From a virus, in the IMG/VR virus record IMGVR_UViG_3300037245_001419, positions 62,001 through 126,000 of that record: a stretch of DNA of 64,000 bases. One strand, given 5' to 3'. The notes under the pieces are model-generated. The model saw only the letters and a list, made by a program, of their open reading frames with translations. It had not been told where the DNA came from and searched no databases. A program made the translations under genes and the position numbers. Of the stretch, positions 588 through 63,997 are shown piece by piece (within the stretch, counting starts at the first letter, position 1; every line of letters starts with the position of its first letter).

Positions 588-1946
588 CTAACTGAAGTCC
601 AATTCTGCAGGGCTAGTATTATCTTTCTTTAAGATAGCGTGATCCTGTGATGCGAATTCATCGTAAAATTGTTCTTCTTCTTCCTCTGGTTCAAAGTTGT
701 ATAATCTCATTTTCGGTTTACTTACCTTAACTTTAACCTTCCCGAAGTTATCGCCAAAACGGCTCTTCAGTAATTTTAAAAGGTAAACGTTAGCTGCTGC
801 TAGTTCTTCGTTCTGAACTATACCATAAATGGCATCAGCCTTGAATGTAGCACCAATAGATTCTGCAGTGTCGGTTAGCTCAACGTTAACATTACCAAAC
901 CCACCTCTATTAGTTTGAAGTCCAGAGACTATCGGGAAGCCGTATTCCTGGGATATTGCTCTCACTTCTTCTGTTATTGCTTTAAGGACTTCATTAGAAT
1001 TGCCTACCACATTTTTATTAGGCATCATGCAGCCTAAGTAATCGATAAACATTATTTTTGGTTTAAATCCTTTTTTCACTTCAAGTTCTTTTAGGAGGTT
1101 TCTAAGGTGGTTAGCATTGATTGTTCCTCCTGGGTATTCTTTAACAATAAGTCGTTCTGTTTGTTTCTTTAGTTTCTCATGTTTGCGATAGAATTCTTTC
1201 TTTGAAAGATTTTTCAATTCATTGATTTCTACATCAAACATGTTGGCTAGGAACCTCTTAGAGAGCTTATCTTCCGATTCTTCTAGTGAGACATAGAGAA
1301 CATTTTGATTGTCTCTAAGGCAGTTAGAAGCGAAAGCACACTGTACTAGGGTCTTGCCAATATTGGTAGACCCTAGGAATAGGATCAGAGATTTCTCATG
1401 AAAACCTCCGTCGAGTTGTTCATCAAGTTTATCAATACCAGTAGATACAGCTTTTTCTTTATTATGAATATATGTGTACATGCGGTCGGTATCGTTCGAT
1501 ATGTCAAGACCTACATTGGTGTTAAATGAGAACGTTAAGGCTTCTCTAATGTTATCAGCAACATCATTGATGGTGTCGAGTTTTCTTTCTTCAAGAGCGT
1601 CTTTTACGGTAAGAATGTTGTACCATAATAATTTTTCCTGGAAGAACTTTTCAATCTCGTCCATAATTTGATCTTTCTGATATTCTTTCATGTCTATTTC
1701 TAGAATCTTTTTAACATTAGATAAGATCTCATCATTTTTAACGTAGAGTTCTAGATTTTTTATATTTGGGAACTCGTTATATTCTTCTTTATAATTAAAG
1801 TACTTCCGTATTATTTGTTGATTTGATGGGTTGTCAAATATTTTAAACAAAGGTATGGTAGAGAGAAAAGGATATAGCTTTTCTCTGATTACCTTACTTC
1901 TTAATATTGAATGAACTATTATGTTTTCAAAATCCAATTCGTCCAT
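588..1946 (-). CDS. 41: Replicative DNA helicase, DnaB/T4 gp41 family
   Basis: A 452-aa hexameric 5'-3' helicase expected to unwind DNA at the phage fork with primase and polymerase. The N-terminal helical region (about 1-150) is followed by a RecA-fold motor. The Walker A loop is LGSTNIGKT (residues 191-199) and Walker B is IMFIDYLG (298-305). T4 gp41 is 475 aa, so the length fits. The ATG directly abuts the stop of the uvsX gene with no spacer, and GAGGGAT serves as the ribosome site. The C-terminus is acidic. No primase domain is fused to it, and no gp61-like primase was seen in the window. Confidence 0.93.
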   Translation of the reverse strand: MDELDFENIIVHSILRSKVIREKLYPFLSTIPLFKIFDNPSNQQIIRKYFNYKEEYNEFPNIKNLELYVKNDEILSNVKKILEIDMKEYQKDQIMDEIEKFFQEKLLWYNILTVKDALEERKLDTINDVADNIREALTFSFNTNVGLDISNDTDRMYTYIHNKEKAVSTGIDKLDEQLDGGFHEKSLILFLGSTNIGKTLVQCAFASNCLRDNQNVLYVSLEESEDKLSKRFLANMFDVEINELKNLSKKEFYRKHEKLKKQTERLIVKEYPGGTINANHLRNLLKELEVKKGFKPKIMFIDYLGCMMPNKNVVGNSNEVLKAITEEVRAISQEYGFPIVSGLQTNRGGFGNVNVELTDTAESIGATFKADAIYGIVQNEELAAANVYLLKLLKSRFGDNFGKVKVKVSKPKMRLYNFEPEEEEEQFYDEFASQDHAILKKDNTSPAELDFS

Positions 1947-3016: not shown

Positions 3017-5608
3017 TTATTTTTTCTTTTTCAGAAATTTACCCAACTGATTTCCACGAAGATTTATTTTTCCCCATCCCAATACTGTAAACATTCTCTG
3101 AATAACATTCATGAAGGTCTTTTCAAATTGAGTGTCGTAATCTATTTTAAATAACTGGTTGAACTCTTTTGGGTAATTTCCAATGTAAGCGATAACATTA
3201 CTATTGATTATGTTCTCGTCTTTTATATATACGTATTTTATTTTGCTACCATTAGCCACTTCCATATATGGATATTCATACTTTTTTATTAGATAATTGT
3301 AACATATACATGCTCTATTATGTATGGGGGTAGATTTCTTAAACACTAATCCTTTCTCGATATAATATTCATGTGGAAATGAATATTTTTCATATCCGTT
3401 TATACCGGACACTGAACTGATATTTTCTATATCTTCTGTCTTAAATGCCTTTTTAGATTTTCTCAATGTTTTAATAGTCATTTCTTTATCGAGATTATCA
3501 AATAATTCCTGAATAACATCTTTGATTGTTTTCCGGCTAAACATAGGGGTATCACTTCTGACAACTTCAACACCTTTATATTTAATTGTTGGTTTATCAT
3601 ATACTTTGTCTTCGTGAGCTAATAGTTCCACTATGTATTTTTTCTTGGCAAGTACAAATTGTTTAGTTATAATTCCTTCACGTTTATATCTTATTAGGTT
3701 TTTAACTCCACGTTTTGCATGATAAATATCTAATATCTTAACAAAGAAAGGTTCTAGTACTTTTTCATCCATTATGGTGGCAAACTCCATGTAGTCCATG
3801 TCAGGAGCGTAGTTCTTCTTAATTTCATTTAGATTGATATAGTTAGAGTCGGTATCAATAACAAATACTAGATCATTTTTAAGTTGGGGTGGATTCTCAA
3901 TTTCAGGAAAATAACAAGTATATACTTTATGCCAATAATTTTTAAAATATTTATTAGTCTCCGCTCCTAAAAATTTGATAAGAACTCTACCACCTCTTGT
4001 TACTGCTCTAGCATTATCAACATCGTAAAAGTGAAAGTATTCTGAACCCATAACACCGTATAAACTATTAATCATAATTTTTCTGATTAGTTGCATTGAG
4101 TAATTAAACTGTTCTCCTTGCTTGTCACCTTTTTTTTCACATTCGCTCATTAGATCTTTAAAGTATTTTCTCTCATCAAAAATTCTTTCAACTATGGATG
4201 GGAATATACCTTGTACATCTTTTTTGTAGTATACCCCGTTGATTTCAGATTTTATTAAATGTTTGGCTCGTTCAGGGGAGGGTTTGATTACTTTAGTTTC
4301 AGGGGAGATATTATAGATCACAATCTCTTTGGGGTATTCAGACTCTACGTCGAATGATAGGCAGTCTTCATAAAACCCAGGCTCTGCATATACATACCCA
4401 CCCTTGATATAAAATGGTTCAAACGTTTTGTTATTTTTATTCTTTTTGTCGTCAGTTTTTACATTTTGAAGTTCACCGTTTACTTTGTAATATCCTTCTT
4501 CCAACCACCAATCACGGGTAATTATTTTTCTATCCGGCATTACCATTTTTCTTTTGTGGAGGTCACGAAGAATAAAGCCTTCAAGTACGGATATAGAACT
4601 AAATACTTTTTCAAATGGTATTAATGTCTGGTAACAAAGTGATACTACTAGTTCAATAAACTTTAGTTTGTTATCTATTTTTTCAACTAAGAGTACATCC
4701 TGAATGTTATATTCTACAAATTTATCCCAATTTGTTTTGTATATTGTATTGATGGTTCCTTCAAGGCCGATCTTGCCTTCTTGGACTTCAGCAATACCAA
4801 TGTTATCTAAAGTATATGAAGGTTGTGTTTCAAATGTGAACTTCTTATATAGTTCAAGGTAATCCAGTTGCGATAGACCTGCTATTTTATACACGTTCTT
4901 AATTTCTATCTTGCCGTCTTGTTTCCGTGTTTTTTTCTCAACGAGTTCTACAATACCAAGTGGTGATAGTTTTTTTTCAATTCCATTGGTTGTAAGGTTT
5001 TTAATTCTATTGATGATATATTTCATATCAAAACCAGTAGAGTTCCATCCTGTTACAATATCAAATTTCATATTTGACCACCAAGTAACAAATGATGTGA
5101 GCATATCAAGTTCATTCTCTATGTATGCATATTTTTCAACTCCTAAACATTTTCGAGTCATTGGTGATGTTCCGAAGGTGTATAGTTTTTTTGTTGTTGA
5201 GCTTTTAACAGTAATTAGATTTATAGGATATAATGCTAAATCTGGTTCTGGAAATTCCTTTTCACCAGCTACTTCAATATCAATATATGCAGTATGAATA
5301 TTATTCATGTCTGTCTTAATATCAACATCCTGGTATCGTTCTTGAAGGTATTTAATATCTTCACTAATGTCAGATTCACAAATTTTAAGTTGGAGTTTTT
5401 TGTATTTCTTAACATCCATATATTTATTGCGAGTATATTTTTTGATTACAGGAGTTCCATAAATGTCAGTATGAACTGTTGCACCGCTGCGATCTTCAAC
5501 GTAGAAATAAGAATTTAGGTCTTCTGTAAGCTTTACAGTTTTACCGTTAAAACATTCCCATATATGGACTTGTTTAGTTTTATTGTCTACATAAATATTT
5601 TTAAACAT
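3017..5608 (-). CDS. 43: Family B DNA polymerase with proofreading exonuclease, gp43
   Basis: The 863-aa replicative polymerase. Exonuclease motifs are intact: Exo I YIDIEV (D110, E112), Exo II in VTGWNSTGFD (around 185-194), and Exo III YNIQD (300-304). Polymerase motif A is SFDVESEYPKE (D420); its usual SLYPS sequence is changed to SEYPK. Motif B is around RKIMINSLYGVMGS (509-522) and motif C is VIDTDS (583-588). T4 gp43 is 898 aa, so the enzyme is full length. The C-terminus (GNQLGKFLKKKK) is basic and could hold the clamp contact, but that is inference. The gene lies between the DHH protein and uvsX in one operon. Confidence 0.95.
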   Translation of the reverse strand: MFKNIYVDNKTKQVHIWECFNGKTVKLTEDLNSYFYVEDRSGATVHTDIYGTPVIKKYTRNKYMDVKKYKKLQLKICESDISEDIKYLQERYQDVDIKTDMNNIHTAYIDIEVAGEKEFPEPDLALYPINLITVKSSTTKKLYTFGTSPMTRKCLGVEKYAYIENELDMLTSFVTWWSNMKFDIVTGWNSTGFDMKYIINRIKNLTTNGIEKKLSPLGIVELVEKKTRKQDGKIEIKNVYKIAGLSQLDYLELYKKFTFETQPSYTLDNIGIAEVQEGKIGLEGTINTIYKTNWDKFVEYNIQDVLLVEKIDNKLKFIELVVSLCYQTLIPFEKVFSSISVLEGFILRDLHKRKMVMPDRKIITRDWWLEEGYYKVNGELQNVKTDDKKNKNNKTFEPFYIKGGYVYAEPGFYEDCLSFDVESEYPKEIVIYNISPETKVIKPSPERAKHLIKSEINGVYYKKDVQGIFPSIVERIFDERKYFKDLMSECEKKGDKQGEQFNYSMQLIRKIMINSLYGVMGSEYFHFYDVDNARAVTRGGRVLIKFLGAETNKYFKNYWHKVYTCYFPEIENPPQLKNDLVFVIDTDSNYINLNEIKKNYAPDMDYMEFATIMDEKVLEPFFVKILDIYHAKRGVKNLIRYKREGIITKQFVLAKKKYIVELLAHEDKVYDKPTIKYKGVEVVRSDTPMFSRKTIKDVIQELFDNLDKEMTIKTLRKSKKAFKTEDIENISSVSGINGYEKYSFPHEYYIEKGLVFKKSTPIHNRACICYNYLIKKYEYPYMEVANGSKIKYVYIKDENIINSNVIAYIGNYPKEFNQLFKIDYDTQFEKTFMNVIQRMFTVLGWGKINLRGNQLGKFLKKKK

Positions 5609-5620: not shown

Positions 5621-6565
5621 TTAGAGTTGAGAGTGTTTTTTACGAATTTCTGGGAAGTTATCATATAGTTCTGATGCTATGCTTCTAACTGTTTCCCGAA
5701 CGTCAATATAAGATTTAGCTGAAAATCCTGCAGCATGCTGATGACCACCACCAATTCCTCTTTCCTTTAATACCTTACCAATATGTATACAATCTAATTT
5801 GCTACGAATTGATACATTGTTAAAGCTGTTGGATGAGAATACAATATTGTATCCTTTGGTCAATTTAATGTTACATATTTCATTTGAGAAGTTATTAAGT
5901 CTTAGAAGTATACCATTAACATGAGTGTAATCCTGACAATTAAAAGAATGATTAGTAGCGTCTAATTCAACTTGTAACTTCTTTTTATCATCATTGATTA
6001 CTTTTAATTCATCTTTATTGAAGTCAACCACGCCTTGAAAGAATCTTTTCTTAAACTGAATAGGTTTGTAGTGATGAAATAATCGTGCAAGATATTTGCT
6101 TCTAGGATTTACTTCAGTCCATAGATCATAGTCTTCAACTAAAGTAATGAAGCTATCGAGATAAGATAAATCTACATCGTACCACTTCTTCATATGTTCT
6201 TTTAATATGTATGAACTACAGTGATCAGAGTTAACTACCTTACCATATTCAGGGTCATTCATTTCAATTGCGGTATCATGATGATCTATAAGGATTATCT
6301 TATCGTAGTTTAACTGATATGCTATGTTATCTGGACTTGGTGTAATATCAGTTATATACACAACGTCATAATTATTAAATTTAACAGTGTCTAAGATTTT
6401 ATCAATGGTCATACCAGATGCTGTAACATAGGTAATGTGACTCCGAGGAAATACATTACCTAATATTAGTTGACATGCTGACCCATCCATATCCCCATCA
6501 GAGATGCTAAGTACTCTCTGACTTTGTAATAATCTAAAGCCACTGTAGATAGAGTTATGTTTCAT
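5621..6565 (-). CDS. DHH-family phosphoesterase
   Basis: A 314-aa protein of the DHH/DHHA1 superfamily, which includes RecJ exonuclease, NrnA oligoribonucleases and c-di-AMP/pApA phosphodiesterases. The N-terminal metal motif is SDGDMDGS (22-29), the DHH signature is LIDHHDT (92-98), and the C-terminal substrate loop is GGGHQHAAGF (272-281). The length is that of NrnA-type enzymes, not full RecJ. It lies directly upstream of the polymerase, with its stop 12 bases before the gp43 start, which suits nucleotide recycling or end processing during replication. Destruction of a defence dinucleotide signal is another possibility that the sequence cannot settle. Confidence 0.88.
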   Translation of the reverse strand: MKHNSIYSGFRLLQSQRVLSISDGDMDGSACQLILGNVFPRSHITYVTASGMTIDKILDTVKFNNYDVVYITDITPSPDNIAYQLNYDKIILIDHHDTAIEMNDPEYGKVVNSDHCSSYILKEHMKKWYDVDLSYLDSFITLVEDYDLWTEVNPRSKYLARLFHHYKPIQFKKRFFQGVVDFNKDELKVINDDKKKLQVELDATNHSFNCQDYTHVNGILLRLNNFSNEICNIKLTKGYNIVFSSNSFNNVSIRSKLDCIHIGKVLKERGIGGGHQHAAGFSAKSYIDVRETVRSIASELYDNFPEIRKKHSQL

Positions 6566-6585: not shown

Positions 6586-7842
6586 TTATTTTTTCATTTT
6601 CTTCTGGATATCGAGTGCCATATTAATGCCAATCATGTCGAGTGGGTTTGCACCACTAGATTGTTTACCACCAACTATAACGATACCTGGAACGTTAATG
6701 TCTTTCAGTGCATTGGCTATGCCTACTTCAGTTTTATATTTCCATGAAGCTTTTTCTTGAGGGGAAAGACCTGCAGCTACCTTTAGTTTATTTGCGGTTG
6801 CTTCAGCTCGACCTTCTGCAATAATCTTCTTAGCTTTCTCGATTGCTTCTCTGGCTCCGAGTTGAGCTATCTTATAATTCTTTTCAGCTTTAAGAATTGC
6901 AACTTCTTTCTCTTTAAGAGCCTCTGTAACGGCTTGAATTTTCTTCACTTCTTCTAGAGCTTTAGCCTCAGCGATAAGTGCCGTACCTTGCATTTCTTTG
7001 GTGATGGCATTTTGTTTAGCGGTTTCAGCTTTTGATTTAGATACTGCTTTATTCTGCTCAATCTCTTTTTTCTCAGCAATCAAACTGTCGATGGTAGGAT
7101 CATAATCAATATCTTTAATAACAAACTGAAGTATCTCTATATCGTATGTTTTAAATGGTGATCCCTTCATGACGACTGGTTGTTTATTGGAGTCTAGTTT
7201 GATTTTAACTTCTCTCTTAATGAACTCTTGATCTTGAGCATCTTTATACTTATACACATGTTTCTCGGTCATGTATATACCGTTTCGTACTTGCCCTTCA
7301 GCTACGGTTGTAAACTCAGATCTTCTAGACGAGTATGATTCTTCGGCTTTCATTAGTGTTGCGGTTTGTTTAAGTGCTTCAGCTACGGTTTGCCTAATGA
7401 GATCTTGCTTAACTGCAGCGTAGCTTTTAAAGTCTTCATGGAGTAGTAATTGAGTGCTATCTACACGAGAAAGTCTGTACTTGATTGAGCCTGAAATAAA
7501 GGCTGTACTACCACCATTAAACCTAATTGAAATAGGGTCTGCTTCTTTTCCTGATCCTCCTTCTTCATCTGATGTAGAGAAGTAGTACATATCAGAAACT
7601 TGATATGGGTGGACAGTTCCAAATGCTTTAGTAAATGTTCCAGTGTTATTGACGACTGACATTGTTCCCCAATATGCTGTTTGCTTTACTTTATAATAAC
7701 CTGAGAAGTTTGTTTCCCATATTTGTGAATAAAGTACTGTAGTTGATATTAGGGTGACGACTGCTAGTATTGCGAGTAAAATTATCCTGCCTTTGTACTT
7801 ATCAAGAAAACTTCTCTGATCATCAGATGATCTATCTTTCAT
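6586..7842 (-). CDS. SPFH/band-7 (prohibitin-like) membrane protein
   Basis: A 418-aa protein with a single N-terminal membrane segment (about 19-38, ILLAILAVVTLISTTVLYS). An SPFH/band-7 type domain follows, then an Ala/Lys/Glu-rich coiled coil (about 255-350), then a C-terminal region ending in IQKKMKK. Stomatin/prohibitin proteins assemble into large membrane rings that scaffold proteases and lipids. The gene is first after the promoter at 7876-7904 and reads on toward the DHH protein and polymerase, so it should be made early. Such proteins are not part of the T4 core. Shielding the membrane or controlling FtsH-type proteases is inference. Confidence 0.87.
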   Translation of the reverse strand: MKDRSSDDQRSFLDKYKGRIILLAILAVVTLISTTVLYSQIWETNFSGYYKVKQTAYWGTMSVVNNTGTFTKAFGTVHPYQVSDMYYFSTSDEEGGSGKEADPISIRFNGGSTAFISGSIKYRLSRVDSTQLLLHEDFKSYAAVKQDLIRQTVAEALKQTATLMKAEESYSSRRSEFTTVAEGQVRNGIYMTEKHVYKYKDAQDQEFIKREVKIKLDSNKQPVVMKGSPFKTYDIEILQFVIKDIDYDPTIDSLIAEKKEIEQNKAVSKSKAETAKQNAITKEMQGTALIAEAKALEEVKKIQAVTEALKEKEVAILKAEKNYKIAQLGAREAIEKAKKIIAEGRAEATANKLKVAAGLSPQEKASWKYKTEVGIANALKDINVPGIVIVGGKQSSGANPLDMIGINMALDIQKKMKK

Positions 7843-7911: not shown

Positions 7912-9126
7912 TTAAAATATATTAACTAAACGCTCAATATATTGTCGAGATTCGAGGTAACGACCTTCATTCTCCATTTTTTCATACTGCAGTCTTCGAA
8001 TTCTGTTAAAGTTCTTAGGCTCTGAGTACTTTTTAATCATGGAGTCGATATCTTCGACTGTACAATCTTCCGGCATTGTAAGAAAATTATGGTCATATGG
8101 GGATGATGAACCATCTGTAAATGTACTTCCGATAGCTAATACACCATCTGCTGAATGTTCGAGGAACTTTAGATCGCTCTTTGCACTGTTAAATTGATTT
8201 CTTACGAGAGGCATGATACCAAAGTCTGCTTTTTCGCTTTTAACTAGGTTTGGATACTGGTAAGAATTTACCCATCCATGTACCTTGATCTTATCTTTAA
8301 TCTCATCCATGAACCACGGGAGGCCACCAAACACGGTAAAATCTATTTCATCATTATTGACTGATTTAATTACCCAATCTTTCCATGCGTTATCCCAGTC
8401 CCCAAGTCTCTTTTCACCATTATGATAATGAGTAGGAGAGCCTGTGTAGATGACTTTAGGTTTTTTAATGACTTCAGTTATGTCAGATTTTCTTTCGTGT
8501 CCCCAGAAGTACTGAGGGACGCAGTTGGGTATAACCTGGATCTTTGTCTTAATGCCGAGTTCTTTCTCATAATAATTTTTTAGAAATGGTGTGGAAACGG
8601 TAACAAGATCCATGAGCTTCATGATTTCAACTGATGCTGTTTTAATTTCTTTGGTGATGCCTTTACTGCCGAAGTTGTATGATGGTACGCCTTCATCAGT
8701 AGTACCGCCTTGGTTTTCGTTGAACCCATGGATGTGATCGTCCATCTCCCATATCATTTTATATTTGAACTTAGGTTGATTCTCTTTGTACTGCTTTATA
8801 ACTGTAAGATGATCGGGGGTCATTTGACGTTGGAAAAAAATTGAGCGTGTTCTTGAAAGTATATCGTTTTGATATACGAACGATGGGGCAAGTAGCATGC
8901 TCATCCGACCAGACTTACCAAATACCGAGTTGAGATAAGTCATCCAGAAGATGTTTCTAATATGCCCACAACCGCTAGAATCGCTTAGGAATGATAAAAC
9001 TAAATTCTTTTTTACTTTAACAACACCTGGTGGAAGTTCTTCACTTGCTGTTGTTGGTGGGGTAGCTATTGTAGCTGCTTGTAGTTGCTTTTGAAACTCG
9101 TCTAGGTTGCTGGTTTTTTTACTCAT
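7912..9126 (-). CDS. GT-B fold glycosyltransferase
   Basis: A 404-aa glycosyltransferase that resembles GT4-type GT-B enzymes. An N-terminal Rossmann-like half begins at LVLSFLSD (about 42-49) with a glycine loop SSGCGH. It continues through MIWEMDDHI (124-132) and TVSTPFL, and the inter-domain VIPNCVP (198-204). The C-terminal half holds VIYTGSP and the donor-binding region around FLEHSADG. The start overlaps the gp47 stop by four bases (ATGA), so translation is coupled. In T4 the DNA alpha-glucosyltransferase gene also lies beside genes 47 and 55, which suggests DNA or nucleotide glycosylation. Cell-surface or protein glycosylation cannot be excluded. Confidence 0.85.
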   Translation of the reverse strand: MSKKTSNLDEFQKQLQAATIATPPTTASEELPPGVVKVKKNLVLSFLSDSSGCGHIRNIFWMTYLNSVFGKSGRMSMLLAPSFVYQNDILSRTRSIFFQRQMTPDHLTVIKQYKENQPKFKYKMIWEMDDHIHGFNENQGGTTDEGVPSYNFGSKGITKEIKTASVEIMKLMDLVTVSTPFLKNYYEKELGIKTKIQVIPNCVPQYFWGHERKSDITEVIKKPKVIYTGSPTHYHNGEKRLGDWDNAWKDWVIKSVNNDEIDFTVFGGLPWFMDEIKDKIKVHGWVNSYQYPNLVKSEKADFGIMPLVRNQFNSAKSDLKFLEHSADGVLAIGSTFTDGSSSPYDHNFLTMPEDCTVEDIDSMIKKYSEPKNFNRIRRLQYEKMENEGRYLESRQYIERLVNIF

Positions 9127-10178
9127 AAACAGATGTCCTTCTCATTGTGTAAGTTGCTATATACATTTTCTATGTTTTCATACACATCTTTCTTGCCTAC
9201 CATTTTGATCTCATCGAGGTATTCATCAATAAGCTCTAAGAGGTCAACGGCTTTATAGTCTTCACTAGTTCCTTGTATGTTAGACTTTCGATCGATTGTA
9301 ATAGGGAGAATGGCAGGTTTGAATCCTTCGCAAGTATCAATATACTTTTCAATTTCTTCTTCACTAAACTCTTGATCATAGTTGACTTCGAGTTTTATTA
9401 CGTTCCCTCTTATATCTTTCTTGTATAAGGGTTCAGGATAAACTACTGTTTTAAACTTTAAAGATGTATTGTTATTTATAAATTCGTAATCAAGGGTATC
9501 TAGATCGAGAATACAGAACCCTCGTTCATCACCTTCGTCAGAAAACGTAAGTTGGTATGGATTGCCGATATATTCTATCTTACGTTCTGCTCGCTGCATA
9601 TTACTTCTGGTGTGGAAGTGACCTGAAAATACTAAGTTATAATTATTAAATAGTATCTCTGTGTCCAACCCGTGCTCATTGACTCTTTTATTATTAAGCT
9701 TAAAACCCATAATTGGTAGATGACCAAGCATAACATCACAGAAGATATTATTGTTCGCTATACGGTTCTTGAATTGATCTTCGTCACACTGCCATGGGAC
9801 AAGTAATACCTTACGGTTAGCGATAGATAGGAGTTTAATATCTTCAATTACATCGACGTTAGGATACTTGTCTAAAAACTTAAGTGAATGTGTCTCAATA
9901 TTGTTCTTAAAGTATGAGTCATGGTTCCCGATTAACATAGTGATCTTAAAATCTTTTAGTTCGTTATCAAACAACTCCATGATAATGTTCTTCAATCTAA
10001 TGTTGATAGTAGATCTGTTGTCCCAGAAATCACCCAAATGAAATATACGAGTAATGTTATGTTTCTTTAGATAAGGAACAAATTCTTTTTTGAAGAACTT
10101 TAGTTGGGACTTTAAAAATACATCTGAGTTGCCATGAACTCCAAAGTGTGTATCTGTTATTAGTGCTACTTTAGCCAT
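9123..10178 (-). CDS. 47: Recombination nuclease subunit gp47 (SbcD/Mre11 family)
   Basis: A 351-aa calcineurin-type metallophosphoesterase that pairs with gp46 to resect DNA ends. The metal motifs are in order: DTHFG (9-13), LGDFWDN (48-54), GNHDS (84-88), MLGHLPI and SGHFHTR. T4 gp47 is 339 aa. In this phage the small zinc-ribbon genes and gp55 lie between gp46 and gp47, all read in the same direction. The gene overlaps the downstream glycosyltransferase by four bases. Confidence 0.94.
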   Translation of the reverse strand: MAKVALITDTHFGVHGNSDVFLKSQLKFFKKEFVPYLKKHNITRIFHLGDFWDNRSTINIRLKNIIMELFDNELKDFKITMLIGNHDSYFKNNIETHSLKFLDKYPNVDVIEDIKLLSIANRKVLLVPWQCDEDQFKNRIANNNIFCDVMLGHLPIMGFKLNNKRVNEHGLDTEILFNNYNLVFSGHFHTRSNMQRAERKIEYIGNPYQLTFSDEGDERGFCILDLDTLDYEFINNNTSLKFKTVVYPEPLYKKDIRGNVIKLEVNYDQEFSEEEIEKYIDTCEGFKPAILPITIDRKSNIQGTSEDYKAVDLLELIDEYLDEIKMVGKKDVYENIENVYSNLHNEKDICL

Positions 10179-10180: not shown

Positions 10181-10399
10181 CTACTCCTGTAGTATAAATT
10201 TTCTTATAGTTTCTTCAACCGTCTTTGGGGTAATTACTTCAGTTCCCCATGCTTCATAAGATTGAGTAAGATTTAGGATTATTTTATTATCTTTCCATAA
10301 GGTTAAACCCATGGAGATATTGCAGCATGTACATCCTGGGTTAACCTTATAGGCATACTTGATGTCTTCAACAACTATATCTCGATATTTCTTTTTCAT
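10181..10399 (-). CDS. Small cysteine-containing protein of unknown function
   Basis: A 72-aa protein with one cysteine cluster (GCTCC, about residues 22-26) and a predicted beta-rich middle. It overlaps the upstream 110-aa zinc-ribbon gene by four bases (ATGA) and ends two bases before gp47 starts, so it is translated as part of the same chain. No family was recognised. Confidence 0.75.
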   Translation of the reverse strand: MKKKYRDIVVEDIKYAYKVNPGCTCCNISMGLTLWKDNKIILNLTQSYEAWGTEVITPKTVEETIRKFILQE

Positions 10400-15217: not shown

Positions 15218-15247
15218 AGTTGAAATTATAATTACTACCCTACTACA

Positions 15248-21930: not shown

Positions 21931-21943
21931 AGTAGGATTTATA

Positions 21944-53099: not shown

Positions 53100-53963
53100 A
53101 TGAACGAAAATAAGTTATTAAGATCAAGACTTACAGAACAAATAAATGACTCCCTTAAAAACTTCATAGATCAGCAACACCCCAACGCTGAGAAAAAACT
53201 ATCATTCTATTCTGGACAAGTAGTCGATAACAACGACCCCGACCAACAAGGAAGAGTTCGAATACGAATTTTTGGTGTGTTCGATGAAGACATTCCTGAT
53301 AATAACCTCCCGTGGGCAATACCAGACTTTAACTTCATAGGTAGTACACTCGGTTCATTCGTAGTCCCACCACTAGAAACTTTAGTTAAAGTCTATTTCG
53401 AGAACGATGACATCTATTTACCTCGCTACACAACTAAAGTACTTAAGAAAGATCAGATGAATGATTCACATTTTATTGCTGGTCTTACTGAAAATTATCC
53501 TGATTCAATGATATTTTTTGAGACAGATACCGGAGAGTATTTCAAGATCAATAGAGCTACTAATGTAACAACCTATAGACACTCATCAGGATTGATGGTA
53601 GACATAGATGCAGATGGTAATCTAAAGATCGACAATACAGACATAAGCATTTCATCTAACCCAAATAATGCAAGTGACTCATCAAAGATAGGAAACATTA
53701 CATTAAACATCAAAAGTAATCTCGATATCAATGTCGGTGGTGATATGACTATAATGTGTGAAGGTAAATTTAAGGTACAGTCTACTGAGAATACTATAAA
53801 GGCTGAGAACCTTATCAATCCTTTAGGTGCTAAGAATAAAATCATAGGCCCTGATAGCTTTAACTGGGTTCCTAATACATTAAAAGTTGATCCATATACA
53901 ACAGCTCCACATGGTGGAGATATAGGCATACCACCATGTGGAAGTATAACAGGAATTGAGTAA
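53100..53963 (+). CDS. 5: Central spike protein, gp5/gpV-like, without lysozyme
   Basis: A 287-aa spike. An OB-fold (about 34-110, with FYSGQVVDNNDPDQQGRVRI at the start) is followed by a short linker. A C-terminal beta-helix-like part has strands DGNLKIDNTDISIS, GNITLNIKSNLDINVGGDMTI and CEGKFKVQSTENTIK. T4 gp5 is 575 aa with a lysozyme domain between OB-fold and helix; here nothing fits in that gap. Peptidoglycan must be opened by another virion protein or not at all. Confidence 0.85.
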   Translation: MNENKLLRSRLTEQINDSLKNFIDQQHPNAEKKLSFYSGQVVDNNDPDQQGRVRIRIFGVFDEDIPDNNLPWAIPDFNFIGSTLGSFVVPPLETLVKVYFENDDIYLPRYTTKVLKKDQMNDSHFIAGLTENYPDSMIFFETDTGEYFKINRATNVTTYRHSSGLMVDIDADGNLKIDNTDISISSNPNNASDSSKIGNITLNIKSNLDINVGGDMTIMCEGKFKVQSTENTIKAENLINPLGAKNKIIGPDSFNWVPNTLKVDPYTTAPHGGDIGIPPCGSITGIE

Positions 53964-55344: not shown

Positions 55345-55512
55345 ATGCCAGACGTAACTTTACCAACATTTTATTTTGATACCGCAATATTACCTGCAAC
55401 TAATTCATTGTTATCAATTTCGGAACCAACAGTAACAGCAATATTTACACAACCAATAGAATCATTTGAAGGTATTGAACCTACTTCAGTTGTAGTGACT
55501 AACCCAACATAA
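55345..55512 (+). CDS. 55-aa protein duplicating the C-terminal motif of its neighbour
   Basis: A short gene with GTGAGGA before ATG 55345. It begins MPDVTLPTFYFDTAILPATN and its second half (SEPTVTAIFTQPIESFEGIE followed by PTSVVVTNPT) matches the last 33 residues of the preceding protein. It looks like a detached repeat that could bind the same partner as that C-terminus. It contains one copy of the dispersed nonamer (55493-55501). Confidence 0.7.
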   Translation: MPDVTLPTFYFDTAILPATNSLLSISEPTVTAIFTQPIESFEGIEPTSVVVTNPT

Positions 55513-56352: not shown

Positions 56353-56766
56353 ATGTCTAACGGTATCTTACATCCAGGCTCTACTTTAAGGAACGATTTT
56401 ACGAATCCTTATGCATACGATTTGTCAAAAAACATATTAACTGAAGTAGAAGTTATTAATGACAAAGCTATCAACGTATCTATAGAAAATATACTCCTTA
56501 CCATATTTGGTGAGAGAGTTTTCGTATTATCTTTCGGATCATTACTTCAGTTGAGTCTTTTCGACGCTATAACAACATCAGACGCTGTAGGTATATTCGA
56601 GAGTGTATTAGACGCTATAGAAGCCTGGGAAACCAGAGTAATATTAGACAGACAAAACGCAAAATTAGATCTTTTTCTTGATAACAACACCATGTTACTT
56701 CAGATTCCTTACACAATTAGAAATAGTGGCATTCAAAGTAATTTTAAAAAGAAAGTAATATTATAG
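56353..56766 (+). CDS. 25: Baseplate wedge protein, gp25-like
   Basis: A 137-aa protein (T4 gp25 is 132 aa), part of the sheath-initiating wedge. It has the family core EVEVINDKAINVSIENILLT (about 33-52) and the LTIFGERVFVLSFGS-type segment that follows (TIFGERVFVLSFGSLLQLSLF). It precedes gp6, as in other contractile baseplates. Confidence 0.9.
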   Translation: MSNGILHPGSTLRNDFTNPYAYDLSKNILTEVEVINDKAINVSIENILLTIFGERVFVLSFGSLLQLSLFDAITTSDAVGIFESVLDAIEAWETRVILDRQNAKLDLFLDNNTMLLQIPYTIRNSGIQSNFKKKVIL

Positions 56767-56782: not shown

Positions 56783-59209
56783 ATGGCTAACGGAAATAAC
56801 AGCTCAAGTAATGTTGGTAACTTTTTAAACTACACCAACCTAACATTCGATGAAATTAGAAGTGATATCTCAAACAGATTGGATGCAGATCCCAGGTTTG
56901 AGAACTTCTTAGAAAGCTCAATATCTCAAACAATCATAGAGATATTTGCAGCAACTACAGATTTAACGAACTACTATCTAGAACGAAGAGCTGAAGAACA
57001 GTATTTTGATACTGCACGGTTAAAATCTTCAGTTATTGTATTAGCTAAGATACTTGGCTATATAGTTACAAGACCTATCCCAGCTTCGAGTTCACTCGAA
57101 ATCGTTATAAAAGGGCCACTACCCTCAGGTTTAGAGGCTGGTGATGAGGTATACTTTCAGAAGTTTAATACCAAGTTCCAACACCAAGGCTTCCCATACA
57201 TCTTAACTAAGACGTATAAGTATATTTTTACCGCTAATGATATTGCAGACGGTACAAGTAACCCAGCATTTAGAAAAACAGTTAACGTAGCCGTTACGAG
57301 TGAATCAGATTTAGTACTTAATGAATTCGGTAATGTACCTCTTTCAGCAACCGAACCAATTGCTATCCTCCAAGGTGAGATTATAGTTCAAGAAGTTCCA
57401 GGTAGCGCTAACTCACAAGCCGGACAAATATTTCAAAAGTATATTATCCCAGACAATCGATTCTCAAACCTATACGGCACAGAAGATCTTAACTATGATA
57501 CTGACACTGCAGTCTTTGACCTTGTCGAGGGGTTAACTAAAGTAGGTGTAGGCCCAGATGAAGATACCGCTTTAGATACAGAAGATAACTTATTTGCTAT
57601 AGATAGACGATCATTACTTACAAATCCAGAAGTATTAAACCAAACTCAGACTTTAGTTGTACCGAAGGTATGTTTATTAAGAACAACTCCTAAAGAAGAA
57701 GTAGAACTATTATTCGGTGATGACTTGATATCTCAGATTGGCGCTAGAACAACCTCTGACAATATATACATTCAATACTTTGCTACAGATGGAACTACAC
57801 CAAATAAAGTAGGCGTACAAACTGAACTAGTCCAAACAAGTAACACACTTGAAGTGATTGGAAAGCCATCTTTATTAATAACTAAGAATTTTGAGTTTAG
57901 ACTTAATAGTAACATCGTTGGCGGTGCTAACTTGGAAAGTATGGAGTCTATTAAAGTAAATGCCCCTTCCCTATTTCAGTCACTTGACAGATTAGTATCA
58001 AAGCAAGACTATGTTATATTTCTTAAGTCGTTAACATCACCAATAAATGTCAATAATGCTTTAGCTTGGGGTGAACAAGAAGAAGTTGAAGCCCTTAACA
58101 AGGCAGGCATCCAAACTAGAGCACTTGTAAAATTATTTAATATAGTATTTTTCTCAGTAGTTGGTGACTTATATCTATTGCCTCCTGGTGGACAGTACTC
58201 ACCTAAAGACTTAACTACTGCCGATAGCTCTAGCTACACAACAACAATACTTGAGGGTGACTATTTCCTAAGTACAGATGAAAATCCAAGTTTTGGTGAG
58301 CAGACTTATTTTAACGTTTACATTAAAAACTCATCTACAAGTTGTGGTGGTGGCGTAATAGAAGCACTTAACGATCAGGAAAGCTTAAATGCAATAGAGA
58401 ATGTAAGAAAAGTAGTTGCCGATCTTCAGACACGAGCACAGATTACAACTAAGAACTTATACATGTCTCCAATCATTCAAAAGTATGGTATTGACGGTAA
58501 CGTTTACCTCCGTAACCTAACAAGCATTAACGATCTTAGAACTAGAGTTAACAATCAGATCTATACATTCTTAAACGATAATGCTGACTTTAATGTACCT
58601 GTATTCATATCTAACATCGTAGAAATTATAGAGAACAACAGAGAAGTTATCAATGCAGATATTTCTTTCGAACCTCTCCCTGTAACATCAGGTACATATA
58701 CTCCGGTGACAGATCTATCTACAGACCCTGACATAGTAGGTACTGGTCTAGTCCCATTAGCGTATGAACCAACCTTAGTATCATTGATAGAACAAGCAAT
58801 ATTTGAGTATCAAACGAACAGACCAAACGCTTTTTTAGGTTCATTGCCAATAGATTCTGAATATTATGATATATCAGACTATAAACAGATTGAATTAGAA
58901 ACCCCACCATTTGCAGTCGGTACTTGGTCTACATATGAATCAGGTGAAATACGAACTGCAGGAATAACAGAGAGAACATTTTATCAAGAACTAATGGATA
59001 ACATGTATAATAACAAATTGAACACTCCTGTAGCGGATGCATATAGAGATTCTGATTTTTTCAGATCATTCACTTCTAGATTAAATAAAACAATGAAGGA
59101 AGCAATTAGAAACAGTATGAGAGATAGTAGCGGTAACATAACAAACTATTCATTAGCTTTAGAAATAGTTCAAATGGTATCTAACATCACATACAGATAT
59201 AAGTTATAA
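56783..59209 (+). CDS. 6: Baseplate wedge protein, gp6-like
   Basis: A long (808-aa) wedge protein with the gp6/gpJ plan. The start NYTNLTFDEIRSDISNRLDAD-type segment is followed by SQTIIEIFAATTDLTNYYLERRAEEQYFDTA. The C-terminal half has NVNNALAWGEQEEV, VADLQTRAQITTKN and a terminal helical arm. T4 gp6 is 660 aa, so there is extra sequence in the middle. ATG 56783 is chosen because GGGAG lies five bases upstream; the earlier ATG at 56771 has a poor site. Confidence 0.88.
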   Translation: MANGNNSSSNVGNFLNYTNLTFDEIRSDISNRLDADPRFENFLESSISQTIIEIFAATTDLTNYYLERRAEEQYFDTARLKSSVIVLAKILGYIVTRPIPASSSLEIVIKGPLPSGLEAGDEVYFQKFNTKFQHQGFPYILTKTYKYIFTANDIADGTSNPAFRKTVNVAVTSESDLVLNEFGNVPLSATEPIAILQGEIIVQEVPGSANSQAGQIFQKYIIPDNRFSNLYGTEDLNYDTDTAVFDLVEGLTKVGVGPDEDTALDTEDNLFAIDRRSLLTNPEVLNQTQTLVVPKVCLLRTTPKEEVELLFGDDLISQIGARTTSDNIYIQYFATDGTTPNKVGVQTELVQTSNTLEVIGKPSLLITKNFEFRLNSNIVGGANLESMESIKVNAPSLFQSLDRLVSKQDYVIFLKSLTSPINVNNALAWGEQEEVEALNKAGIQTRALVKLFNIVFFSVVGDLYLLPPGGQYSPKDLTTADSSSYTTTILEGDYFLSTDENPSFGEQTYFNVYIKNSSTSCGGGVIEALNDQESLNAIENVRKVVADLQTRAQITTKNLYMSPIIQKYGIDGNVYLRNLTSINDLRTRVNNQIYTFLNDNADFNVPVFISNIVEIIENNREVINADISFEPLPVTSGTYTPVTDLSTDPDIVGTGLVPLAYEPTLVSLIEQAIFEYQTNRPNAFLGSLPIDSEYYDISDYKQIELETPPFAVGTWSTYESGEIRTAGITERTFYQELMDNMYNNKLNTPVADAYRDSDFFRSFTSRLNKTMKEAIRNSMRDSSGNITNYSLALEIVQMVSNITYRYKL

Positions 59210-59243: not shown

Positions 59244-61322
59244 ATGGCTGACGAAAAAATATCCGACTTAAATGTCGCAGGTGCTCTAGCAGGAACGGAG
59301 CCTTTAGCTATCGTTCAAAATTCTGAAACAAAAAAAATTAATGCGGTTGATCTACTGGACTTAAGTTTAAAACAACATTCCGATCTTGGAGATGTTACTT
59401 CAGTTGACACCCATGTCAGTGCCACACCTAATCATAATTTATTTATTGGTGAATTTGCAGGACAAGACAACACAGGAAGTGACAATATATTTTTTGGTCT
59501 TAATGCAGGTAGGGCTTCCACATCTACATCACAATCTGTAGTTATAGGAACCAGTGCTGTAGCGGACGGTAATGCAAGCGGAGTTTACATCGGAAATAGT
59601 GTATGTGGACACGGAGGTGGTACTACAGAGGTAATAATTGGTACTAGTGCTGCATCTGGTCAATCGTACGACGGCCAGGGAAATCTTATAATTGGACAAT
59701 ACGCAGGAAGAGCACTTGAAGTCGTACTCCGCAATACTATTGTTGGAACTGAAGCCGGATCTGGTTTCACTGGAAGCCATCTCCCTGGTGGTGATGTTGG
59801 CGGTGGTGGTGGATGGTATAATACTATTATGGGCTATAGGGCAGGTGTTTATGCTGACGCTTCTAGTTCTGTATGGATTGGTGATTCTGCAGGACGTAAT
59901 ACAAGTGCATCTTATTCAGTTATGATTGGTAGAGATGCAGGTCATGATAATGCAGGTGATTACAACGTTGCAATAGGTATAAACTCTGGTTATAACTCTA
60001 CAGGTGCAAATAATACATCATTAGGTTCAGATACTTTAGTTGAGAATCTTAGCGGTCATGACACAGTTGCAATTGGGTTTGAGGCATTTAAAGAAAACTC
60101 AAATACAAATTCTGTAGCAATTGGATCAAAAGCAGGAGCTAGTGCATCAGGCATGTATCACACTTTAGTTGGTAGTTATGCAGGTGTTGCTACTGATGAA
60201 CATTCAAATACTTTTATAGGGTATAAATCTGGATATTTAGCATCAGGTAACTCCAATACTGGTATTGGTGCAAATGCATTTAGCAGTGGTAACGGATATG
60301 ATGTTGTCATGATAGGACAAGGTGCAGGAAAATATTCTCAAGGTGATAATAATATCGCAATAGGTGCACTCGCATGTAGTGACGCAGGATTTACAGGTGA
60401 GTTAAATACTGTGATCGGCTCGCATGCAGCTAAAAGTCTAACAATCGGAAATCACAATGCAATAATTGGAACTAGTGCTGGATGCGGTTTAACATCTCAA
60501 GATGATAATACGTTTGTTGGTATGGGTTCAGGCGGTTCATCATCTGCAAATAAATGTACACTGATAGGTGGAGAAGCTGGTAATAATTCAATTGGAACTC
60601 AATGTGAGTTTATAGGATATAGATCTGGATTTAATAATACGGGCACGTTAAATGTTGCCATAGGCTCACAATCAAGCTTCAATACAACTGGCGATCTAAA
60701 CGTAGCAATAGGTAGTAATTCATTATTTAGTAATATCGGTGGTAGCGAAAATGTTGCCATTGGTTATGTAGCATTGCAAATACCAACAGCTGTATATAGC
60801 AATGTGGCTATAGGCGCATATGCAGGACAGAACATAGCAGGATCATCAACATCCAATGTATTAATTGGTCATAGGTCAGGACAAAATTCATCGGGATCTC
60901 AAAATGTCGCTATTGGTGATAATACATTAAACAGTACTGTAGGGTCTTCAAATGTTGCTGTAGGATGGAATACAATGGCTGCCTCATTATCAGCTGACTT
61001 TAACGTATCTATCGGTAGTTTCGCTGGCGAATCACTTCTTGGTGATAGAAACGTCATGATAGGATATGGGGCAGGAGCTGCTAACACATCTACAAGTGGG
61101 TGTGTTAAAATTGGTTATGATGCAGGTAAGACTCTAAGCGATGATAATACACTTATTATACATAATTCAGACTCAGCGAGTCCATTGATATCTGCAGACT
61201 TTTCATCGGGAGTATTTGACCTGAATGGCTCATACTCTGTTAATGGAACACCAGGAGTAAGTTTCTCAGGTGCAGTATCAAATATAACAGTAGTAAACGG
61301 ATTAGTAACAGCAGTTTCATAA
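59244..61322 (+). CDS. Tail fibre with YadA-like head repeats
   Basis: A 692-aa protein composed from about residue 70 to 635 of more than 25 short repeats of the form N-V/T-A-I-G-x-x-A/S-G (for example NVAIGSQSS, NTVIGSHAA, NVLIGHRSG). The 14-20-residue period is like the left-handed parallel beta-roll heads of trimeric autotransporter adhesins. The N-terminus (MADEKISDLNVAGALAGTEP) is a common fibre attachment motif. The C-terminus probably makes a trimer tip. It is driven by a late promoter and should be a host-binding fibre. Confidence 0.87.
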   Translation: MADEKISDLNVAGALAGTEPLAIVQNSETKKINAVDLLDLSLKQHSDLGDVTSVDTHVSATPNHNLFIGEFAGQDNTGSDNIFFGLNAGRASTSTSQSVVIGTSAVADGNASGVYIGNSVCGHGGGTTEVIIGTSAASGQSYDGQGNLIIGQYAGRALEVVLRNTIVGTEAGSGFTGSHLPGGDVGGGGGWYNTIMGYRAGVYADASSSVWIGDSAGRNTSASYSVMIGRDAGHDNAGDYNVAIGINSGYNSTGANNTSLGSDTLVENLSGHDTVAIGFEAFKENSNTNSVAIGSKAGASASGMYHTLVGSYAGVATDEHSNTFIGYKSGYLASGNSNTGIGANAFSSGNGYDVVMIGQGAGKYSQGDNNIAIGALACSDAGFTGELNTVIGSHAAKSLTIGNHNAIIGTSAGCGLTSQDDNTFVGMGSGGSSSANKCTLIGGEAGNNSIGTQCEFIGYRSGFNNTGTLNVAIGSQSSFNTTGDLNVAIGSNSLFSNIGGSENVAIGYVALQIPTAVYSNVAIGAYAGQNIAGSSTSNVLIGHRSGQNSSGSQNVAIGDNTLNSTVGSSNVAVGWNTMAASLSADFNVSIGSFAGESLLGDRNVMIGYGAGAANTSTSGCVKIGYDAGKTLSDDNTLIIHNSDSASPLISADFSSGVFDLNGSYSVNGTPGVSFSGAVSNITVVNGLVTAVS

Positions 61323-61333: not shown

Positions 61334-63997
61334 ATGGCGTTTAATTTTATATTAAAAGAAGATGGTGGACACCTTCTTCAAGAAGATGGTGTTTCGAATC
61401 TTATTCTTAATGAAATACAACTACCCCAAAAAATTAATTTGGAAGTTAAACGTACTGTAGCGACAAGTACTGACGTTGAGTACACATTTAGAATTACATC
61501 TCACGACCCAGTCGAATCTATTGATCTATCAAACTATAGAATCGTTCAGTACCTTAACACTAGATGGCCTGGTTCACTCACATATGGATTAGGTCAAGTT
61601 CCAACACCATTCGGTGGTGCTGGCCCTGGTCTAGCTGTATTCGCAGCCCCAGACGATATTGCATTTATAACTGAAGATAAACCACCCCACATATACCCAG
61701 AACGAGATAGATTTTCAATTAAAAGAGCAACTAGATTTGTTCAAGGTACATTACCGTTATCAGGCTCTGGTTATGAAGGTAACTCAATCACAACACACCA
61801 TGGCGTTAATACATGGTCTACAAATTCAGATACAAGATATGATTACGAACCTGAGCACTGCTATACCGCTACTACAGCTACTGACTTTGAAGACAATCAT
61901 ACATTCGTATTAGAATTCAATAGTACAGAAACTAAGACAAATCCAACGTCTCCTGACTGGGATATTGTTACCGAATATATAACCTCAGCAACTATAGACC
62001 CAGAGACTTCAGTTTACCCCTTAAGTGCAGACGGTGACAATACAAAAACATATAATAGAATAGTATACCCAACTAAAGATAATATTATAAAAGAGTTATT
62101 CCCAGCGACAGTTTTTAATAGTGATCCTTTACACTTACTACGTAAAGGCCCTGGTGCAAATGTGAGAATACTAGAATACTACCCTATTAGCGTTCCATTT
62201 AGAGATCAAGTTCTTGCACTAGGAACTTCTGCAGAAAGCTTAACAGACGTTAGAGCAGCAGAATTTTGGAAGTATACAGTTAATACTTTTACTGCAACTA
62301 CAATGGATCTAAATATGTTATCATCAGATTTCGATTCATCAACAGCGACATGGAATACTGAAGTTGACAACGTTAGCGCCAATATGTCAGACACTAATTT
62401 TACAGGTTTATCAGTCCATGACAATCTTGAATTTGCAAGATGGGAAATAACAGACAAAGACATTATTAAATCATGGATGATTCCAACCACATCAGCAAAT
62501 AATAAAGGCGTAGTTACAAAGTATGAAGTTGAATCTTCACCAGTTACAGAAGGCCCATATTTTTCGTCGTTGGAAACAACATTGGGAAATGAAACTAGAC
62601 CAGCATTTGTTATTAACACTAATTTTATTCTAGGTGGTGAACAAATTTGGACTGGTGCAATAAATTCTAACTGGTCTAATCCTGGAAACTGGCAAAATAA
62701 TGAAATACCAAGCATAGGATCAGTAGCAGCTTTTGATGGTGGTGTGTCAACAGTCCCATGTGTATTAGACTCAAACCAATCAGTATATAACCTAACATCA
62801 AATGCAGGTAGTGGAAGTATAAACTTATCGTCATTCGATTTGACAATTGAGGGTAGTATTTGTGACTTTAATGGATTCAGTTCATTGACACAAGAAACAG
62901 GAGGCAAATTAATATTAATAAACTCATGCGTATTAAATCTAGGTCAAGAATTTGCTACCGCATCTTTGCAAACATTGGAAATAACAGAAAATGCACATGT
63001 AAATTATTTCGCAGATAAATCTCTGAGATTGACTGAAAACTTTAATGTCAGTGGTACATTTATGATGCATTCTAATCTTACATTAGATGGGGCGCAATCA
63101 TCGTTTGGTGAAAATGCAATTATAGATTCTGAAAGATCTGGTTCTACAGCATTGTACACAATAACATTATTCGGTGGTTCACTTTCAAACACAGGCACTT
63201 TAAATACTAAAGTTCATTATACTTTTTCTGATAATGTAATAACTGGAAGATTTTATGGGGGAAAAGTATCAGTATCTAACGATGGCAGTCCTTTCGCTTC
63301 AACTACAACTATGACATTTGGAGATGGACAACATACATACCTTGATGGCCTCTTTATTAATAGCTCTCAACAAGGTAGCTTATTAGTAATAGATGCCTCA
63401 GCCAACGACCCAGATATATTAATGTTACAGGGATCAGGATTACTTACAATAGCAACAGGTTTTCCACCTGAAGATGAACTTATATTTTTAATGGGATCAA
63501 AAGATTGGATAATATCTACAGACCAACTAGATTTAGCATTTGTAGATAGTTTCGATTTAGGTGGAGGTGGTGGTTTTTACGTAAATGGTGATACTACTAG
63601 TATAATGTCCCCACTAACAGATATCATAATGCCACCATTAACAATAAATTCATCAACTGAAGTAATTGATATTAATAATAACATATACACACAAAACTTT
63701 ACAATGAATATAGGGTCAACAGTTAATTTTAATCACTTTAATATTAGTGCAGTTGATGCAATCAATATATCAGGAAATTCAGACTCAGTAAATCTATTAT
63801 CTGGAACTTCTCTCGCAGCATCTAACATAAATATTGTTGGAGATCCTTTAGATTATATAGACTTATCGACTGAAGAGTTTTGGTATATAAGTGCATCAGA
63901 TACATTAGATGTTGTTCATGTTGATTTAAAATCTTCAGATGCATCTGGTGGTGTAACTGGTATAGCAATAAGATCAAATGATTTGGGAGAACCATAA
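61334..63997 (+). CDS. 887-aa virion adhesin/fibre
   Basis: A large, beta-rich, Thr/Ser/Asn-rich protein. It starts with MAFNFILKEDGGHLLQEDGV (a repeated LQEDG-type attachment motif) and contains an IWTGAINSNWSNPGNWQNNE segment near 436-455 of the type found in autotransporter passenger beta-helices. Irregular parallel beta-helix repeats follow. Its stop shares a base with an ATG at 63997, so the next gene is translationally coupled and runs off the window. It probably forms a long fibre or baseplate-attached adhesin. Confidence 0.8.
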   Translation: MAFNFILKEDGGHLLQEDGVSNLILNEIQLPQKINLEVKRTVATSTDVEYTFRITSHDPVESIDLSNYRIVQYLNTRWPGSLTYGLGQVPTPFGGAGPGLAVFAAPDDIAFITEDKPPHIYPERDRFSIKRATRFVQGTLPLSGSGYEGNSITTHHGVNTWSTNSDTRYDYEPEHCYTATTATDFEDNHTFVLEFNSTETKTNPTSPDWDIVTEYITSATIDPETSVYPLSADGDNTKTYNRIVYPTKDNIIKELFPATVFNSDPLHLLRKGPGANVRILEYYPISVPFRDQVLALGTSAESLTDVRAAEFWKYTVNTFTATTMDLNMLSSDFDSSTATWNTEVDNVSANMSDTNFTGLSVHDNLEFARWEITDKDIIKSWMIPTTSANNKGVVTKYEVESSPVTEGPYFSSLETTLGNETRPAFVINTNFILGGEQIWTGAINSNWSNPGNWQNNEIPSIGSVAAFDGGVSTVPCVLDSNQSVYNLTSNAGSGSINLSSFDLTIEGSICDFNGFSSLTQETGGKLILINSCVLNLGQEFATASLQTLEITENAHVNYFADKSLRLTENFNVSGTFMMHSNLTLDGAQSSFGENAIIDSERSGSTALYTITLFGGSLSNTGTLNTKVHYTFSDNVITGRFYGGKVSVSNDGSPFASTTTMTFGDGQHTYLDGLFINSSQQGSLLVIDASANDPDILMLQGSGLLTIATGFPPEDELIFLMGSKDWIISTDQLDLAFVDSFDLGGGGGFYVNGDTTSIMSPLTDIIMPPLTINSSTEVIDINNNIYTQNFTMNIGSTVNFNHFNISAVDAINISGNSDSVNLLSGTSLAASNINIVGDPLDYIDLSTEEFWYISASDTLDVVHVDLKSSDASGGVTGIAIRSNDLGEP

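Follow-up and report, generated by a model that had tools for sequence, protein, structure and literature searches.

A nine-base DNA-level word dispersed through the genomes of a clade of T4-related phages

The 64,000-nucleotide stretch analyzed here (the window) corresponds to positions 62001-126000 of the 211,777-base IMG/VR virus record IMGVR_UViG_3300037245_001419 (G000). Within the window, and throughout the record, the nine-base word AACTRAAGT (W1) is repeated in large excess, accompanied by a second enriched word, AGCTAAAGC (AGCTRAAGC; W2). This signal is real, strong, clade-specific and genome-wide, and it resides in the DNA rather than in the proteins encoded; it is characterized by its excess, its neutrality with respect to orientation, a dyad structure, covariation between two of its positions, conservation at the DNA level, and restriction to one clade of phages. 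As a tentative but favored interpretation, W1 and W2 could be double-stranded DNA recognition sites for a putative sequence-specific factor of this phage genus. Coordinates of individual W1 and W2 sites are window positions.

The window encodes a T4-type DNA polymerase, a gp20-type portal, a tail sheath and a helicase, and genes for UvsX, a DnaB-type helicase and a gp46-like protein are also present. The named phages closest to G000 share only about 30% amino acid identity with it. Near-identical pieces of the same phage (~99-100% DNA identity) were found in other samples, so the sequence is no assembly accident. Two relatives with ~77-79% identity in the query proteins were available for comparison, G002 (31.8 kb; pieces L005, L010 and L024) and G004 (104 kb; pieces L008, L020-L023 and L029). 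The pieces of G000 are the window, L001-L003 and L025-L028, with L003 and L028 falling in its positions 160001-198000.

Fifty-seven copies of W1 lie in the window (25 on the plus and 32 on the minus strand), compared to ~2.5 expected from an order-2 Markov model. A preliminary description of this DNA had reported 56 copies where two or three would be expected; both the over-representation, which turns out stronger still, and the expectation hold, and the count is corrected by one. The two spellings of the word, AACTGAAGT (n = 29) and AACTAAAGT (n = 28), are both among the top three over-represented 9-mers of the window, the third being ACTGAAGTA, which overlaps AACTGAAGT. Over the whole G000 record W1 is found 332 times (158/174 by strand), that is, ~1.6 copies per kb, one per ~640 bp or ~1570 per Mb, whereas the reversed control word is found 9 times. 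The same contrast was observed in the relatives, with 165 copies of W1 versus 7 of the control in G004, and 23 versus 2 in G002.

Synonymous codon shuffling within each gene was used to separate this excess from the coding content. Within 124 kb of G000, the genes contain 115 copies of W1, whereas 200 shuffles gave 17.3 +/- 3.4 copies with a maximum of 27, and permuting the codons gave 4.5; the reversed control word, on the other hand, was found 6 times compared to 5.8 after synonymous shuffling. The preliminary description had named codon-shuffled genomes with a similar count as the result that would overturn its claim, and in the close variant of that check run here the shuffles do not reproduce the count. 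The excess over synonymous shuffles was present in every region tested, at roughly 4 to 12-fold. As had been proposed, genic copies are read in several frames, and they lie in both orientations relative to the gene (59 same, 56 opposite; 169/160 over all loci), which makes a signal at the RNA level unlikely. Intergenic DNA is richer still, with 68 copies compared to 1.0 expected from its own composition in G000 and 41 compared to 0.4 in G004 (3.7 per kb; 68 in 18.6 kb and 41 in 11.1 kb), whereas genic density ranges between 0.6 and 1.7 per kb depending on the region. Within G000, the structural part has the lowest genic density (0.70 per kb), and the genome flanks have the highest (1.6-1.7 per kb). 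The tripeptides TEV, TKV and TLV, which are encoded by the commonest frames of W1, are ~2.5-fold over-represented; W1, as a DNA word, appears to have shaped proteins, the excess of T-E/K/L-V looking like a consequence.

The word is sharp, as its single-mismatch neighbors are mostly near background, except for the free A/G at position 5. The base 3' of W1 is A in 59-68% of the copies, and G is avoided 5' of it. The core of W1 is the dyad ACT-RA-AGT, and that of W2 is GCT-RA-AGC. W2, the covarying second word, which the preliminary description had not noticed, is enriched in both genomes (32 copies versus 1.2 expected in G000; 27 versus 0.6 in G004) at a density of ~0.3 per kb, and both words are present in G002 and G004. 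For fixed inner bases, positions 2 and 9 covary as A..T or G..C (Fisher tests; p-values: 3e-26 and 2e-28 for the two genomes). The mixed words AACTAAAGC and AGCTAAAGT remain at background, with 2 and 3 copies compared to 1.8 and 1.9 expected in G000, and none compared to 1.0 and 0.9 in G004; forms with C..G and T..A outer pairs are mildly raised in G000 only. The two words also differ in location, 25% of W1 and 6% of W2 being intergenic. The unmixed outer pair (A..T or G..C) constitutes a concrete puzzle for any mechanism.

To analyze conservation, 97 kb of G000 were aligned with its relatives, at a DNA identity of 70%. W1 is retained at 45 of 85 sites (37 identical and 8 with A and G swapped), whereas only 9.3% of all 9-mers in the same alignment are intact (p-value: 2e-24). 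Lost sites mostly carry two or more differences, and one change from W1 to W2 was observed. The symmetry of the core, already proposed, is supported by the flipping of the dyad center (GA to TC) at a few homologous places, where AACTGAAGT is replaced by AACTTCAGT, and AGCTGAAGC by TGCTTTAGC. Third codon positions in genic W1 are 76% identical compared to 53% in the flanks, whereas first and second positions barely differ from them (80/77% and 88/85%); for W2, third positions are 72% identical versus 57% in the flanks. Third-position conservation, retention, the excess over shuffles and orientation neutrality together imply that the constraint acts on double-stranded DNA, in agreement with the earlier proposal that the signal belongs to the DNA and sits at places where the proteins can accommodate it. 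Either DNA-level selection thus preserves W1 and W2, or some process continually regenerates the sites. As about half of the W1 sites turn over while the density stays, density is preserved more than position, a pattern compatible both with selection on sites and with a site-creating drive.

The word appears to be the clade's own. Five named T4-type phages contain 2-5 copies of W1 per 50 kb, compared to 42 in G000 and 80 in G004, and no 9-mer in those five reaches the copy number that W1 has in these two genomes. Distant relatives found through the sheath protein show no excess (in the 264 kb of G005, 3 copies versus 21 of the control), and no dispersed W1 outside the clade was found among the matches listed in a viral scan. 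Neither the 297 genomes of the phylum centered on Bacteroides faecichinchillae nor the 399 genomes of the phylum centered on a Marinomonas showed any excess (W1 at most ~61 per Mb). A word that phage and host genomes have in common is therefore not seen in these ~700 genomes of two phyla, which may not include the host. A word belonging to a host genome was also rejected because, among the matches listed in a genome scan with the pair of words, only scattered single hits and tandem repeats appeared; candidates such as L250, L230 and L126 were tandem repeats inside proteins. No paper describing such a phage word was found, within a partial coverage of the literature.

Other words deserve mention in this context. 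In L018 (IMGVR_UViG_3300027863_000020), a distant relative, ATTGACG/CGTCAAT is ~ninefold over-represented (38 versus 4.3 in 21 kb), possibly representing another phage with its own word, and in L267 (Pelagibacter phage HTVC008M) GACGC or GACGA is part of several 9-mers that rank among the most enriched, which could be a similar, weaker phenomenon. The G000 pieces strongly avoid CGCG, GGWCC and CTGGAG relative to synonymous shuffles, as is typical of restriction-site avoidance, whereas G004 avoids CAGCTG and GGTACC instead; CTGCAG is ~twofold over-represented in both and does not show the kind of flank preference seen for W1.

Regarding placement, the spacing of W1 is near random (coefficient of variation 0.8-1.2). 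Helical phasing was rejected, since Rayleigh tests were negative and an apparent excess at 21-24 bp corresponds in part to inverted pairs within terminator-like hairpins. A general role as a promoter element was also discarded, because W1 lies at widely scattered distances from gene starts and shows no preferred orientation. Of ~36 early-type promoters of G000, 8 carry W1 in their spacer, mostly in one repeated arrangement, so that these are not independent cases, and 3 of 10 promoter-like sites of G004 do so, at offsets other than those in G000 (~0.4 expected; p-value: 0.006). Seven intergenic stretches of G000 are bordered by W1 pairs in inverted orientation; most of these stretches are hairpin-like, and a clear run of T follows at least two of them. 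Promoter and hairpin copies fit a placement wherever the sequence is free, and the promoter-spacer copies may be real operators. As to the promoters themselves, ~30 near-identical early-type copies (TTGACA-N5-TTAGTTAATTARC-TATNTTTAATAATAG) are found in L003 and L028, in many of which the palindrome AGTTAATTAACT adjoins the -10 box; in addition, six copies of CTTATCCTTATTGGC occur within ~260 bases at L003:11758-12018, 33-78 bases apart.

Among the proteins that might read the word, three of G000 have a helix-turn-helix (HTH) of the Cro/CI type, encoded at L001:7656-7967 (XRE1), L001:8467-8832 (XRE2) and L027:12262-12747. XRE1 resembles phage repressors of known structure, and its relative in G004 has an identical recognition-helix stretch (VSQAAISQLETGER) within an overall identity of 59%; elsewhere in IMG/VR, only a member of the clade matched it. 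These proteins are candidate binders and constitute a lead. Ribbon-helix-helix proteins would likewise match an 8-bp dyad whose half-sites are 3 bp long, and none of these families appeared among the listed Pfam matches of 204 small proteins. The three common DNA methyltransferase families N6_N4_Mtase (PF01555), MethyltransfD12 (PF02086) and DNA_methylase (PF00145) are absent from G000, G004 and G002, a search that did not extend to N6_Mtase and other types.

We infer from these data that W1 is bound by a protein, that the binder is of phage origin, and that it acts on the whole genome. Most likely, the putative binder would be a homodimeric DNA-binding protein of the phage, or two such proteins. 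The sites themselves occur in either orientation over the whole genome, wherever proteins and control sequences leave room for them. The bound protein would act on the genome as a whole, since it is density rather than position that is kept, and since the sites show neither a preferred orientation, nor a helical phase, nor a constant distance to gene starts. It may mark phage DNA as self and, at a late stage of infection or upon superinfection, it may organize, compact or silence that DNA. Through W1 in the spacers of early promoters, this protein would also be able to act on early transcription. Of the functions listed in the preliminary description, DNA-organizing or regulatory binding sites thus remain the best reading, and a phage-encoded modification target is less likely because the three methyltransferase families are absent. 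Several observations weigh against recognition by such a factor. Independent half-sites of one homodimer would tolerate the mixed forms, which are not enriched, so that two proteins or another mechanism are needed. Neighboring sites show no 10.5-bp period, no HTH protein of G000 could be tied to W1, and neither W1 nor W2 occurs between 6700 and 9373 around the two L001 genes of G000, XRE1 and XRE2. Finally, the retention of W1 also fits a gain of sites driven by repair or recombination.

Among the other explanations, an unlikely one is a modification or mismatch-repair signal like that of the cyanobacterial highly iterated palindrome HIP1 (GCGATCGC), in which a phage or host methyltransferase would modify W1, and methyl-directed or biased repair would both use and create sites up to about one per kb. 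HIP1 and the other highly iterated palindromes of cyanobacteria are, as W1, short palindromic words present about once per kb beyond what composition explains and of unclear function (PMC4390886); the same study suggests that such sites saturate at close to one per 1000 nt, and it also considers degenerate sites in palindromic form (PMC4390886). W1, with a dyad core and 332 copies in 211.8 kb compared to 9 of the control, shows a comparable palindrome density. In contrast to HIP1, it belongs to a phage genome and is an AT-rich, interrupted 9-bp dyad; one of its positions accepts either A or G, and it has a second, covarying form. Furthermore, none of the three methyltransferase families is encoded in the phage records, although a host enzyme or one of the N6_Mtase type could serve, and the sampled bacteria show no W1 excess.

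Still more doubtful is a set of dispersed repressor sites, in which a phage repressor on W1 in early promoters, together with genic roadblocks, would shut transcription down. This is consistent with the W1 copies in early-promoter spacers of both genomes, the pairs in terminator-like hairpins, the higher intergenic density, and the presence of Cro/CI-type proteins similar to phage repressors. However, about three quarters of the W1 copies are genic and without orientation bias, only about one fifth of the early promoters contain one, W2 is almost exclusively genic, and there are none around the XRE1 and XRE2 genes of G000. The stoperators of Cluster A mycobacteriophages are likewise numerous short repressor-binding words scattered over a phage genome, repressor binding being putative for W1, but they amount to at most ~30 per genome, are 13 bp long and mostly share one orientation relative to transcription (PMC6550527), whereas W1 has more than 330 copies, mostly genic and orientation-neutral. 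SPBRE of Bacillus phage SPbeta is a phage-specific repeated operator, first found as a repeated word, that is bound by the phage protein MrpR in promoter regions (PMC10516654). Its few sites, with a 15-bp motif, lie in intergenic and promoter regions (PMC10516654), in contrast to the far commoner W1, of which only about a quarter is intergenic and which occupies 8 of ~36 and 3 of 10 early-type promoters.

A recombination or replication signal similar to Chi is improbable. Chi is a short over-represented word able to protect linear DNA, and W1 would, by analogy, protect or direct the processing of DNA ends by gp46/47 or by the host RecBCD/AddAB, or mark points of initiation. T4-type recombination genes are present (uvsX, a gp46-like gene, uvsY), and a density signal across the whole genome suits end processing. 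Chi is, however, oriented, whereas W1 has no strand bias (158/174) and is unusually AT-rich and dyad-shaped, and no enriched genome, as expected of a host Chi, was found among the 696 bacteria sampled. The uptake signal sequences and DNA uptake sequences (USS/DUS) of Pasteurellaceae and Neisseriaceae resemble W1 in their 9-10 bp length, huge over-representation and location at weakly constrained places (PMC1939737), but show a graded over-representation of mismatched forms (PMC1939737), whereas most single-mismatch forms of W1 are near expectation; in addition, viruses take up no DNA, and none of the 696 bacterial genomes of two phyla, among which the host may be missing, is enriched. Each known system compared thus differs from W1 in at least one defining feature, and W1 is assigned to none of them; in our comparison, the HIP1 palindromes and the uptake sequences appear closest in appearance, and stoperators and SPBRE closest among phages. 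As for a coding or compositional artefact, in which W1 would follow from favored tripeptides (T-E/K-V, T-S/L-V), codon use or protein repeats, ~70% of genic copies do read T-x-V, T[EKL]V tripeptides are over-represented and the isolated look-alikes elsewhere are tandem protein repeats, but it is rejected as practically impossible, because shuffling that preserves the proteins gives 17 copies versus 115, codon permutation fewer still, both strands, several frames and intergenic DNA (68 versus 1.0 expected) are involved, and third codon positions are conserved.

The individual W1 sites of the window illustrate this dispersion. Seven copies are fully intergenic, in agreement with the earlier claim of at least seven: 14317-14325 (+), 15213-15221 (-), 17410-17418 (+), 30785-30793 (-), 38476-38484 (+), 38497-38505 (-) and 38538-38546 (-). 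Overlap with terminator stems was likewise found, as 38476 and 38497 are the left and right arms of one inverted repeat (38476-38505) between convergent genes, and 15213 lies at the foot of a terminator-like stem. On the other hand, the stated overlap of the copy at 17410 with a -10 box is not supported: the scan places the promoter-like TATAAT at 17439-17434 (-), with W1 ~16 bp downstream of it. The reported overlap with stop codons is correct: at 590-598 (+) W1 overlaps the one that ends gene 588-1946 (-), and at 21925-21933 (+) it runs over the end of gene 21511-21930. Among recognizable genes, the DNA polymerase gene contains 4290-4298 (-; T-K-V) and 4660-4668 (-), both intact in G004; the gp46-like gene, 12976-12984 (+) and 13054-13062 (-); the primase gene, 17284-17292 (-); and the helicase gene, 19989-19997 (+), 20045-20053 (+), 20491-20499 (-) and 21132-21140 (+). 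Rarity in the portal, sheath and terminase genes had been claimed; the first two contain no copy, and one (41790-41798, -) is found in what is, in our own gene reading, the probable N-terminal open reading frame (ORF) of the terminase large subunit.

Two further copies lie in ORFs (14944-14952, +; 55483-55491, -), and the rest in other genes. On the plus strand these are 2245-2253, 6137-6145, 7124-7132, 22812-22820, 23606-23614, 26689-26697, 34901-34909, 37511-37519, 47429-47437, 48761-48769, 53432-53440, 54659-54667, 56439-56447, 57535-57543 and 63655-63663 (T-E-V); on the minus strand, 6725-6733 (T-E-V), 8471-8479, 10097-10105, 10236-10244, 17643-17651, 22341-22349, 24084-24092, 26321-26329, 26912-26920, 30164-30172, 35076-35084, 36333-36341, 53379-53387, 54044-54052, 54378-54386, 56544-56552, 57650-57658, 59397-59405, 60033-60041, 60162-60170 and 62006-62014. 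The copies at 6137 and 10097 are intact in G004, and those at 26321, 26689, 26912, 30164, 35076 and 36333 (L005) and at 53379 and 53432 (L010) are intact in G002. W2 is located at 19580-19588, 24726-24734, 30515-30523, 30880-30888, 34568-34576, 41013-41021, 41596-41604 and 50299-50307 on the plus strand, and at 6800-6808, 7376-7384, 13365-13373, 25180-25188, 42183-42191, 45183-45191, 48822-48830, 51402-51410, 55170-55178 and 58058-58066 on the minus strand.

Other genes of G000 include a B12-type ribonucleotide reductase (L026:14662-17829) with a weak match to an intein splicing domain inside, a TROVE/Ro60-like protein (L001:18804-20000), RNA-repair enzymes in the same region as the latter (RlaP, L001:9875-10813; a PNKP-type phosphatase, L001:7122-7598), and an Apyc1-like anti-Pycsar metallo-hydrolase (L002:18300-19076).

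To our knowledge, phages are known for tens of operator sites, and not for hundreds of copies of one exact word running through their genes. It is possible, although we propose it with caution, that a lytic, T4-related jumbo phage genus keeps a DNA address of its own, in which W1 and W2 would be read by one or two dedicated phage proteins to distinguish, organize or silence phage DNA, selection for the word shaping even its proteins (T-E/K/L-V). The sites are sharp and frequent and can be used as bait, which makes the proposal easily testable. Should W1 indeed serve the phage as a genome-wide code for binding or marking, it would represent a sequence-based recognition and management of self DNA, an alternative to base hypermodification.

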